Assembly: GCF_030296595.1 (NCBI RefSeq)
Contig: NZ_AP027731.1
Span: 1,364,001 to 1,428,000, forward strand
Direction of reading: 5' to 3'
Source of the DNA: Naasia aerilata
Lineage (GTDB): Bacteria; Actinomycetota; Actinomycetes; Actinomycetales; Microbacteriaceae
Length of the DNA stretch: 64,000 nt
Numbering within the stretch: position 1 is the first letter of the stretch; each line of letters begins with the position of its first letter. Both the position numbers and the translations under genes were made by a program. The notes beneath the pieces are model-generated. The model was not told the DNA's origin and made no database searches. It saw nothing but the letters and a program-made list of their open reading frames with translations. Shown here in pieces: positions 3,050 through 10,847 of the stretch.

Positions 3050-4791
3050 TCACGGCTCCAAGAGCGCTCGCCGAACCGCGCCGTCGATGCGCAGCTCGAG
3101 CTCGCCCGTCACGGGTGTCCCGGCGGTGAGCCAGCGCGCCGCCCCCGCGGGGAATTCGGCCCGAGCGCGCCAGATGCCGTGGCGCAGGGTGCGCCTGACG
3201 GTGGCGGCTGCCCGGAGCTCGACGCAGGAGCCCGCGTCTTCCGGGCCGTGCAGCGCGATGGCCGCGGTGACCTCCGCGGGCCTCACGTCGGCTCCACGGA
3301 TCGCGAAGTCGGCCACCGCTGTCAGGGCGGCCGCCGTGTGGGAGACCTCGCCACTCCGCACGGTCAGGTCGAAGGCGGGGGCCGGGCGACCGCGCCGTGC
3401 GCGGGCGCGATGCAGCACCTCCGCCCACCGCCGCAGCACGGCTTCCTCGGAGAAGCGCGCCGCAGCAGTCGCTGCTGCCCTGCGCAGCGACGCCGCCCGG
3501 TCCGGGTGCTCGACCAGATCCCGGATCCGCTCGCCGAGCGCGACGACGTCTCCTGGCGGCACGAGGAATCCGCTGACGCCGTCGGTGATCACGTCCGCGG
3601 GGCCGTAGGGGATGTCGTAGCTGAGCGGCAGCGACCCGCGGGACATCCCCTCGGCCAGCACCAGGGGGAAGCCTTCCGTGCTGCTCGTGAGCAGGAAGAA
3701 GGACGCCGTCTGGAACGCGTCGAGCGCATCCGGGCGGAAGCCGAGCAGGCGCACGGCGTCCGCGAGGCCCAGCTCGTCGACGAGGGCCTGAAGCGCGACG
3801 CGGCCGGGCCCGTCGCCGTAGACGTCGAGCCGGGCGGGAGCGCCCCCGCCCGCGCCGATTCGACCGCCCGAACAGCGTGGTCGACGCGCTTGCGCTCGTC
3901 GAGGCTCGCGAGCACGACGCCGAGGTGCGGGTCTCGCGGCGCCGCCGCGTGCGGGGTGGGCAGGGGCGCGGAGTTGGGCACGACCTCGAGTGACTCGGCC
4001 GGCCCGAGCAGCACCCGCACATCGTCGCGCTGCCGCTCGGACAGGAGGACGACGGCGTCGAAGTCCTCGAGATGGGTGAGCGGGCCGCGGCGCGCGGTCT
4101 TGATCCGCCCCCAAGGGCGGTCCTCGCCCTCCAGATGCGAGTTGTGGACGATGTGCACCAGGGTGGCGTGCGGGTTGCGGTAGCCCACGAGGAAGTCCGC
4201 AGTCGTCTTGCTGTCGACGAGCAGGAACGCATCCTCGTCGCCGATCACCTGGTCGAGCCACCAGCGGTAGAAGGGCCACACCCGGGTGAAGCCGAACACC
4301 GGCCGGCCGTCGCCGTCGCACAGCACGATGGACCGCCCGCCGACCCGCCCGCGCTCGCGCGTGTCCCGGATGTCGCTGAGCGCGAGCGTGCCGTCGGGGC
4401 GGCGCCGGTCGATCTGGAGCAGCGTTCCGTTCTCGCTCCGGCGCGCGTGAGTTCCGTCATCGGTGGGGGGCAGCGGGTCGAAGCGGTCCAGCGCCGCGGG
4501 CTTCGCGCCGCGTGCGGTGGCGGGCCGATCCGTCGCGGCGGTGACCTCGTCCCAGAGGTTGCGGACGGCGATCCCCTCGTCGAGCAGGCCCCCTGCGCGG
4601 AGGTGTTCCACGAGATCCGGGTAGTCGTCCTGCTGGTCGAAGGTGAGGACGTCGACCGGGGCCCCGGCCAGGCGTGCGAAGGATCGCGATCGGCGCAGCA
4701 TGGCGCCGGTCATGCCGCCGAACTCGCGGGTCAGTCCCCACGTCAGTGCGAACTGGCGGCCGTGCGGAAGGACCTCTGGATCGATGGCCAA
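3050..4791 (-). CDS. GT4-type glycosyltransferase, TarM/GtfA-like (one frameshift)
   Basis: The enzyme should transfer a sugar from a nucleotide donor to a surface polymer or protein in the cytoplasm. The C-terminal half is diagnostic: DVYGDGPGRVALQALVDELG, then FQTASFFLLTSSTEGFPLVL, then EGMSRGSLPLSYDIPYGPAD and DGVSGFLVPPGD, the donor-binding E-x7-E region of retaining GT4 enzymes. It most resembles poly(glycerol phosphate) glucosyltransferases and GtfA. The start is TTG 4791 (MAIDPEVLPHG) with GAGGGGA upstream. A missing base in the C5 run at 3843-3847 splits the gene between ESARAGGG and APARLDVYGDG. The repaired length is about 580 residues. A wall teichoic acid or glycopolymer role is inference. 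It stands divergent to the 25-aa ORF. Confidence 0.8.
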
Positions 4792-4893
4792 CGGGGTCCC
4801 CTCGGGGCGGATGATACGCGGAAGCGGTCAGCTTAAGCGATGTCGGAGGCCCACCCTAAACTGGGGCCACGAAACGCCGAAGACACAACATGT

Positions 4894-4928
4894 CGGGAAT
4901 GACAGAGCTGTCATTCCCGTTATATAGT
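4894..4928 (+). promoter_or_regulatory. Strong promoter embedded in a 26-bp operator palindrome
   Basis: CGGGAATGACAG (4894-4905) and CTGTCATTCCCG (4908-4919) form a perfect 12-bp inverted repeat around two bases. The -35 hexamer ATGACA (4899-4904) lies inside the left arm, and the -10 TATAGT (4923-4928) follows after 18 bases. This is the best sigma-A-type promoter seen in the window. A dimeric repressor bound here would cover the -35 and spacer. The site drives the 25-aa ORF and lies about 100 bases upstream of the divergent glycosyltransferase. Confidence 0.7.
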
Positions 4929-4983
4929 GAAGCACCGCCGCAAGGTGGACCACAGCACTAGCTCATCGAAGGGGAGATGGCTC

Positions 4984-5061
4984 ATGGATTTCGACAACGA
5001 CCTGGGGTACGCGGTTCCGGTTGACCCGATGGACCTCCTGCAGTGCGACAGCTGCCAGTAG
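4984..5061 (+). CDS. Small peptide gene, 25 aa, C-terminal CDSC
   Basis: The peptide begins MDFDNDLGYAVPV and ends MDLLQCDSCQ. It has an acidic N-terminal half and a short C-terminal part with two cysteines and a serine. AAGGGGAG precedes the ATG by about eight bases. An overlapping ATG at 4977 gives only a 15-residue nonsense frame. The gene has its own promoter/operator (4894-4928) and a perfect terminator (5094-5125), so it looks like a complete, tightly regulated monocistronic unit. The leader-plus-core shape recalls RiPP precursors, but I recognise no family and see no modifying enzyme nearby except the divergent glycosyltransferase. Function unknown. Confidence 0.6.
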   Translation: MDFDNDLGYAVPVDPMDLLQCDSCQ

Positions 5062-5093
5062 GCACCGACGCCCGCTGATTTCAGCATCGCCGA

Positions 5094-5125
5094 AGAACCC
5101 CCGTGCGCCTCGCGCCGGGGGTTCT
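5094..5125 (+). terminator. Terminator of the 25-aa gene
   Basis: AGAACCCCCG (5094-5103) and CGGGGGTTCT (5116-5125) form a perfect 10-bp stem with a 12-base loop, 33 bases after the stop codon of the small ORF. It may also serve the convergent LuxR-type regulator gene ending at 5192. Confidence 0.8.
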
Positions 5126-5191
5126 CGCATGTCCGGCGAGGCTCCTCGGTTGCACGGTGGGGGACACCGCCGGCTGCGCCGCCGAGCAGGG

Positions 5192-9318: not shown

Positions 9319-9734
9319 CCGCCGCGGCCGACCTGGCGGTGGGTCAGGTCGTCGCCGAGCGCACCGTTCCGCTGACCCGCGACTCGCTCGTCCGGTACGC
9401 CGGCGCGTCCGGCGACTTCAACCCCATCCACTACCGCGACGACGTCGCCGCGAGCGTCGGGCTGCCCGGGGTCCTCGCCCACGGCATGCTCACGATGGGC
9501 GCGGCGGTGCAGCCGGTGGTGGACTGGGCCGGCGGCGCGCATCGCATCCGCGACTACCAGGTGCGGTTCACCCGTCCCGTCGTCGTCGATCCCGAGGCGG
9601 GCGCGACGCTCACCGTGAGTGCGAAGGTGGCGGCGCTCGACGCGGAGGCGGGAACGGCCCGCATCGATCTCACCGTGCGGGCGGGCGAGGCGACCGTGCT
9701 CGGGAAGGCCCAGGTTGTCGTCGTCGTCGGCTGA
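9315..9734 (+). CDS. HadB-like MaoC family dehydratase
   Basis: A 139-residue hotdog-fold protein with the R-hydratase motif YAGASGDFNPIHYRDDVA followed by GLPGVLAHGMLTMG, where the Asp and His of GDFNPIH are the catalytic pair. It should dehydrate or hydrate (3R)-hydroxyacyl thioesters together with the upstream HadA-like partner, with which it is translationally coupled. It starts at GTG 9315. Its last 20 bases overlap the probable murB start. Confidence 0.9.
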   Translation: MTAAADLAVGQVVAERTVPLTRDSLVRYAGASGDFNPIHYRDDVAASVGLPGVLAHGMLTMGAAVQPVVDWAGGAHRIRDYQVRFTRPVVVDPEAGATLTVSAKVAALDAEAGTARIDLTVRAGEATVLGKAQVVVVVG

Positions 9735-10847
9735 GCCGGAGGTCCGGGAGGACGTCCCGCTGTCCACGCTGACGACGCTCCGGGTCGGCGGTCCCGCGCG
9801 CCGCGTGGTCCGGGCGGACAGCACCGGCGCGCTGATCGACGCCGCGCTCGCCACCTGGGCCGACGGCGACGACTGGCTGGTCCTGGGCGGCGGGTCCAAC
9901 CTGCTGGCGGGAGACGACGGGTTCGACGGCACCGTCCTGCTGCCGGCGGCGCGCGGCATCGAGGAGCAGCGCGACGGCGATCGGGTCGTGCTGCGAGTGG
10001 AGGCGGGCGAGCCCTGGGACGACCTGGTCGCCGTCGCGGTCGAGCGCGGGCTCACCGGCATCGAGGCGCTGTCCGGCATTCCCGGTTCCACCGGCGCCGC
10101 GCCCATCCAGAACATCGGCGCGTACGGCCAGGAGCTCAGCTCCTCCTCGTCGCGGTCGAGTTCCTCGACTACCTCACCGGCGAGCTGTCGCGGAGGACCG
10201 CGGACGAGCTGGGGCTCGGCTACCGCACGTCGATCTTCAAGCAGGGACTGCGCGGCGTCGTGGTGACCGTCGAGCTGGAGCTGGCGGCGCCGAGCGGCCC
10301 CGGTCCCGCGCTGAGCGCCCCGATCGCCTACGCGCAGCTCGCCGGCGCACTCGGGGTCCGGCTCGGCGACCGGGTCCCGGTGACCGAGGTGCGGGAGGCG
10401 GTCCTCCGCCTGCGGCGCAGCAAGGGCATGGTCCTCGATCCGGCCGATCCCGACTCGGTGAGCGCCGGATCCTTCTTCACCAACCCCATCGTCAGCGAGC
10501 GCTTCGCGCGAAGCCTGCCGCCCGAGGCGCCGCGGTGGCCCGTGACTCCGGACGAGCCCGACGTGGCGGTGCCGGTGGGCGCGTCCCTGCCGGCGGTCCC
10601 GTCCCACGAGCACCTCGTGAAGCTCAGCGCCGCGTGGCTGATCGAGCACGCGGGCATCCGTCGCGGCTTCTCCCTGCCCGGCTCGCGAGCGGGCATCTCG
10701 ACGAAGCACTCGCTCGCCCTGGTGAACCGCGGGGACGCGACGGCGGAGGAGCTCCTGGAGCTCGCGCGCTACGTGCGCACTCTGGTGCAGACCGAGTTCG
10801 GCGTCCTGCTCCAGCCGGAGCCGGTCCTTCTGGGCGCCACCCTCTAG
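9715..10847 (+). CDS. murB: UDP-N-acetylmuramate dehydrogenase MurB (one frameshift)
   Basis: MurB reduces UDP-GlcNAc-enolpyruvate to UDP-MurNAc with FAD and NADPH, a required cytosolic step of peptidoglycan synthesis. LSTLTTLRVGGPARR, WLVLGGGSNLLAGDDGF and EALSGIPGSTGAAPIQNIGA are FAD-binding segments. The C-terminal part has GSFFTNPIV and KLSAAWLIEHAG. The frame slips near 10141 (YGQELSS/LLVAVEFLDYL) from one lost base. As the gene should be essential, this is probably a sequence error. The start is uncertain: TTG 9715 is the only in-frame start codon just before the conserved LTTLRVGGPA, giving about 377 residues. Confidence 0.9.

Follow-up and report, generated by a model that had tools for sequence, protein, structure and literature searches.

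A 25-codon gene of Naasia aerilata that probably encodes a detached redox tail of class I ribonucleotide reductase

The window analysed here is a stretch of 64,000 nucleotides from Naasia aerilata (contig NZ_AP027731.1, positions 1,364,001 to 1,428,000 of the forward strand), and the locus under study lies at positions 4894-5125 of it. An open reading frame (ORF) of 25 codons plus a stop codon at 4984-5061 on the plus strand encodes the peptide MDFDNDLGYAVPVDPMDLLQCDSCQ. An earlier note, made from the sequence alone, had described a perfect 12-bp inverted repeat, a TATAGT -10 element, a ribosome-binding site, the 25-codon ORF and a terminator, and all of these were present in the sequence. Together with two predicted boxes for the repressor NrdR, the features of the locus are:

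4883..4898, plus strand: NrdR box 1, ACACAACATGTCGGGA, 11/16 matches to the consensus ACACWATATATWGTGT
4894..4919, no strand: perfect 12-bp inverted repeat with a 2-nt loop (sequence, repeat search)
4899..4904, plus strand: likely -35 hexamer ATGACA within the box spacer, read from the sequence (columns 0.88-0.98 conserved)
4915..4930, plus strand: NrdR box 2, TCCCGTTATATAGTGA, overlapping the -10 element (consensus scoring, box pairs at window-type loci, promoter alignment)
4923..4928, plus strand: -10 element TATAGT, from the sequence (columns 0.98-1.00 conserved among sequences chosen for having the boxes)
4971..4976, plus strand: ribosome-binding site GGGGAG, from the sequence, 7 nt ahead of the ATG at 4984
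4984..5061, plus strand: putative stand-alone redox-tail gene of the ribonucleotide reductase type, MDFDNDLGYAVPVDPMDLLQCDSCQ (relatives search, tail alignment, profile search, co-occurrence, codon differences)
5094..5125, plus strand: terminator hairpin (repeat search, folding)

The arms of the inverted repeat, CGGGAATGACAG at 4894-4905 and CTGTCATTCCCG at 4908-4919, are both perfect 12-mers, and the terminator arms at 5094-5103 and 5116-5125 are perfect 10-mers. Folding of positions 5085-5135 gave -29.2 kcal/mol (z -4.8), and none of 200 shuffles was equally stable. The 12-bp palindrome is the middle part of a larger predicted element of two 16-bp NrdR-type boxes with a 16-bp spacer; it covers the inner ends of both boxes and the spacer.

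The peptide matched the C-terminal redox tail (CxxC) of NrdA, the alpha subunit of class I ribonucleotide reductase (RNR). In a genome of another family of the order (G045; G and L numbers denote the genomes and fetched loci examined) the motif is the C-terminus of a full-length NrdA. In G000 and most relatives examined, a second tail copy followed a long ORF and preceded another gene of the same strand, and the flanking genes in G000 and G045 were RNR alpha (ATP-cone, lgN, lgC; NCBIfam NF005101) and RNR beta. The alpha gene, which the RNR beta gene adjoins, was best matched by the ribonucleoside-diphosphate reductase alpha model and not by the B12 kind. NCF, NLCTE, VCNLASIN and TTYYL, which we take to be the motifs of the NrdA catalytic core, were all present in the G000 NrdA. 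The terminal cysteine pair of the C-terminal motif of NrdA homologues is present in the peptide, and continuity with the alpha chain is absent. We concluded that the product of the window gene is very probably a C-terminal redox tail of class I RNR that has been detached from its enzyme.

Across 296 genomes sampled from the whole class, with tail matches counted at E≤0.001, no detached tail was seen outside Microbacteriaceae. Other than in G000, a close NrdA was found in 21 of these genomes and a tail match in 18. The open frame of the tail was equal in length to that of NrdA in 17 of the 18; in the last one (G359) NrdA and tail lay at the ends of two contigs. The NrdA of the three genomes without a tail match ended in CxxC (G351), was cut by the contig end inside the motif (G236) or ended without a cysteine (G401). 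Detached tails mostly read [YF]xVPxDPM[DE], and the seven fused ends read have CPVDP and then QER, AER or MEA. It may be speculated that such differences are docking features replacing the tether.

The fetched loci contained 48 distinct NrdA C-termini with a stop codon. Five of them, all from outside Microbacteriaceae, end in CxxC, and the remaining 43 consist of the cysteine-free end of G401, also from outside the family, and 42 ends from Microbacteriaceae. No cysteine follows TTYYL in 41 of these 42. The exception is G017 (L061), in which the nrdA frame continues across the tail gene; this is probably due to an indel and otherwise would be a new fusion form. A tail lay just downstream of 38 C-termini, with its start -4 to +16 nt from the end of the nrdA stop, and no adjacent tail was present in G084, G023, G001, G401 and G017. 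The tail used all three frames relative to nrdA (33, 3 and 2 of 38) and is therefore a separate ORF and not a frameshift product. The separate tail ORFs have about 22-35 residues, one of them overlapping or abutting the nrdA end and one, that of the window, lying elsewhere.

We also compared the occurrence of tails and NrdA in 120 Microbacteriaceae genomes. NrdA matched 58 genomes at E≤1e-10, and 54 were kept after four with a best match of only 41-61 bits had been dropped. With the tail profile, 57 genomes matched at E≤0.1; after removal of G091 (E 0.05) and of one weak row each in G068 and G030, 56 genomes with 128 tails were kept. All 54 NrdA genomes had a tail, as compared to 2 of the 66 others (Fisher p 2.9e-32, phylogeny ignored). 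Both tail-only genomes are incomplete: G131 has an RNR fragment, and in G143, which is 77% complete, no RNR was found. An adjacent tail was present in 52 of the 54 NrdA genomes and a distant tail in 52 of the 54, with 76 distant tails in all. A single class I/II RNR alpha (PF02867) was found in each of 20 tail genomes with an intact one. In G023, G084 and G001 nrdA is Cys-less and nrdB follows with no tail between; the short stand-alone tail of these genomes is distant and has NrdR boxes (L063, L098, L006). Since the nrdA-side tail is missing there, the tails, if they work, work in trans, and these genomes may be regarded as a natural experiment for trans action.

A protein search of 60 relatives at a loose threshold (E≤10) matched 18 (10 at two places, 3 at three and 5 at one), and these include fused NrdA ends in G045 and G058 as well as a match in G054 at E 1.44. 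Within the genus, a DNA search found the window's gene in 6 of 9 genomes. Its members G002, G003 and G008 have one RNR alpha each, but neither the tail search nor the DNA search with the window's gene matched them. In 25 aligned tails, a selection from those found, the P, DPM, L, C and SCQ positions were invariant. The acidic N-terminus was more uniform in window-type copies (distant genes with NrdR-type boxes) than in operon-type copies (tails beside nrdA); G061 carries both tail kinds. Over the last 17 codons, 47 window-type loci showed 3985 synonymous versus 612 non-synonymous single-step differences, which corresponds to an omega-like value of 0.04, and 16 operon-type loci gave 0.08; the loci were compared in pairs that are not independent of each other, and finding them through similarity of the peptide biases such values downwards. 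The reading frame and the cysteines were conserved where the palindrome was kept. The claim of the earlier note that this is a genuine, self-contained peptide gene was thus borne out; within Microbacteriaceae both its regulatory element and its cysteines are conserved.

The window boxes ACACAACATGTCGGGA and TCCCGTTATATAGTGA start 32 bp apart and were scored against the consensus ACACWATATATWGTGT. Published NrdR spacers are 15-16 bp long, with binding at 14-17 bp (PMC12051234), and the 16-bp spacer of the window fits this spacing. A box pair scoring at least 21/32 at a distance of 31-33 bp (spacers of 15-17 bp allowed) was present at 48 of 48 window-type loci, the best-matching distant copies, versus 0.17% of 9,600 first-order Markov shuffles, and five further window-type copies scored 21-25. 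Box pairs were present within 500 nt of the tail in 79 of the 80 best-matching named genome loci, a set that overlaps with the 48; the exception adjoins nrdA. All 18 nrdA upstream regions found among 20 loci (17 genomes, spacing 30-33, with no shuffle control) had box pairs as well, and an NrdR gene was present in all 15 genomes checked. The palindromic operator of the earlier note thus fits a pair of predicted NrdR-repressor boxes. The spacer palindrome AATGACA-N4-TGTCATT (window 4899-4914) was conserved in 95 distinct chromosomal promoter sequences chosen for having the boxes. In 17 nrdA spacers, TGACA occurred in one (L048) and TGTCA in two, and the palindrome is therefore not a feature of nrdA promoters. 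Apart from the likely -35 hexamer that lies in it, the palindrome raises the question of a second regulator.

Stand-alone tails were also found on mobile elements. Tail matches on plasmids (E up to 0.08) came from 19 records (15 Clavibacter, 3 Leifsonia, 1 Gryllotalpicola), and in all five plasmids inspected the tail forms the end of a short ORF, with genes for conjugation, relaxase, recombinase or partitioning nearby. NrdA at ≥60% identity was found in none of the plasmid records (E≤1e-60). On a plasmid of Leifsonia sp. ZF2019 a 33-residue tail (L319, 3962-4063) is annotated as ribonucleotide-diphosphate reductase subunit beta (WP_223361114.1). From 356 confirmed IMG/VR stretches 80 were kept, and in all 80 contigs examined the tail ends an ORF of <300 codons without NrdA. 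Named phages gave six records with weak E values (0.01 to 2), including Pseudanabaena phage Pan2; CMP1, CN1A and phiPsal1, a phage of Pontimonas salivibrio, were read and carry stand-alone tails. The tail is surrounded by terminase and portal genes in L231 and preceded by endolysin and holin genes in phiPsal1, whose 56 annotated features include no RNR and whose tail is unannotated. No NrdR box pair occurred within 500 nt in any of the 83 viral loci (80 from IMG/VR and the three named phages).

Some genomes carry extra tails beside the window-type one (G072 at L307 and L308, G083, G099, G121), and by eye a number of these tails lie near genes that resemble integrase, ParA or phage genes. Of the five distant tails of G072, four have no NrdR boxes.

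An NrdH-like domain was fused to a tail in three genomes, as an open frame in G143 (L324) and G001 (L330, 1337-1822) and with an apparent frameshift in G099 (L312). The solved NrdH structure 4fiw matched all three (E 3.1e-10 for L324, 3.8e-9 for L330 and 8.5e-10 for L312). NCBIfam NrdH models matched L330 and L312 below the cut-off, and L312 had no Pfam match. When the NrdH CxxC motif was read by eye, no cysteine was left in L324 and one in L330. ParA- or relaxase-like genes were seen by eye on the contigs of L324, L330 and L312.

In the tails of class I RNR, and of class II NrdJm, a terminal cysteine pair on a flexible tail relays electrons from a redoxin to the active site (PMC5704485, PMC9669993). 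In class I RNR the phosphine TCEP works by way of the C-terminal cysteines, and DTT gets to the active site itself (PMC5704485). A free peptide would meet oxidised NrdA, its CxxC would reduce the active-site disulfide, and NrdH or thioredoxin would recharge the peptide. Falling levels of deoxyadenosine triphosphate would release NrdR from both promoters, and the window copy would add tail in trans. With both genes under NrdR, enzyme and peptide would rise and fall together, and phage copies would escape this control.

Several points weigh against a detached tail with this function. One is the question of how an untethered 25-mer would reach a useful local concentration. As G001 also has the NrdH-tail fusion, the window-type gene is its only short tail and not its only tail. 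The nrdA frame of G017 runs on over the tail gene, and G401, outside the family, has a Cys-less NrdA with no tail found. Extra tail copies without a box pair amounted to 17 tails in 15 loci (scores 12-16) and two more.

Other explanations were weighed and rejected. The nrdA-side tail might do the catalysis and the distant copy tune RNR, as a regulator or as a decoy in competition for NrdA or NrdH. Most genomes do have both tail kinds, and the more uniform acidic N-terminus of the window-type copies would suit such a role, but G001, G023 and G084 have a single class I/II RNR alpha, which is Cys-less and lacks an adjacent tail, so that the function there would fall to the distant copy (in G001 together with the NrdH fusion); we consider this role unlikely. 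That the tails are vestigial, with NrdH or another thiol reducing the truncated NrdA directly, appears quite improbable in view of the synonymous excess, the invariant SCQ end in 25 aligned tails, the tail in each of the 54 NrdA genomes and the stand-alone copies on plasmids and in phages. G401 appears to get by with a Cys-less NrdA (L303), although it carries a second RNR alpha.

The earlier note had proposed a leader plus core, that is, a secreted ribosomally synthesised and post-translationally modified peptide (RiPP) or a signalling molecule. The short length, the acidic N-terminus, the Cys/Ser end and an ABC-2 transporter and a two-component system nearby in the window speak for it. A scan of the neighbours, confined to the window, revealed no RiPP enzyme but an ABC transporter. 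The peptide had no match in NCBIfam or PHROGs, and Pfam gave only sub-threshold matches to a zinc finger and DUF5816. Its C-terminal half equals the NrdA C-terminus of related families, it co-occurs with NrdA, most genomes have a paralogue next to nrdA, hadA/hadB-type sequence appears to be the conserved neighbour instead, and the operator fits NrdR. This proposal was abandoned as very unlikely. Of 38 operon copies, 29 have overlapping stop and start codons (offset -1 or -4), which could suggest that NrdA and tail are joined by a programmed frameshift or stop readthrough, but the tail stands in all three frames relative to nrdA, and distant copies cannot be joined in this way; we give this hardly any weight.

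On the divergent side, the glycosyltransferase reported in the earlier note was confirmed as a domain (Pfam, in frame 3053-4321) but not as a conserved neighbour: hadA/hadB-type sequence, sought by motif, was instead found near 66 of 80 named tail loci. ORF 3589-4791, which starts nearest the peptide gene, had no family match, and because the domain lies in 3053-4321 the divergent gene looks frameshifted. The glycosyltransferase (window 3050-4791) and murB (9619-10847) each seem to run across two frames, which may point to indel errors or to pseudogenes in this assembly. An Rfam scan of the window at gathering scores found one tRNA and nothing else.

A detached tail of class I RNR shares the terminal cysteine pair with the flexible tails of the class I alpha subunit and of class II NrdJm (PMC5704485, PMC9669993); the difference is that the tail is not in the alpha chain but encoded by a separate gene, often far away. 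The nearest precedent (PMC5704485) is the split class II enzyme NrdJa+NrdJb, in which the reducing cysteine part is likewise on a separate gene; electron delivery between subunits was tested in a related NrdJd (PMC5704485). That domain has 150-220 residues and a zinc finger and serves a B12 enzyme, whereas the tail described here has about 22-35 residues, would serve a class I enzyme and occurs in several copies and on mobile elements. As in the NrdR regulon, where two boxes with a 15-16 bp spacer stand at RNR promoters (PMC12051234), boxes are present here, but they flank the promoter of a stand-alone peptide gene and enclose a conserved spacer palindrome. Our searches gave many matches to phage RNR alpha. 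Phages that carry RNR functions raise the supply of deoxynucleoside triphosphates (dNTPs); here, in contrast, the arm alone appears to be carried, and in phiPsal1, the phage checked over its whole genome, no RNR is annotated. No published report of a detached class I RNR tail was found in the literature searched, which left most subscription journals outside.

The comparisons lead us to favour, with some reserve, a wider picture in which a catalytic limb of an essential enzyme became a free, shareable peptide. Chromosomal copies would be rationed by NrdR, phages and plasmids would carry stand-alone copies (the viral ones without NrdR boxes), and the degraded NrdH-like tail fusions would be delivery adaptors. 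With about 25 codons, it may be the smallest metabolic gene that a phage uses to raise dNTP synthesis in its host. Published descriptions treat RNR tails as flexible arms tethered to the enzyme; an arm detached throughout a family makes the need for a covalent tether testable and offers a minimal peptide for studies of RNR and redoxins. Editing tools are reported for Rhodoluna lacicola and Aurantimicrobium photophilum (PMC11577799). For Microbacteriaceae, the tail gene is probably essential and easily missed by annotation, and it points to an exchange, by way of phages and plasmids, of one working part of an enzyme.
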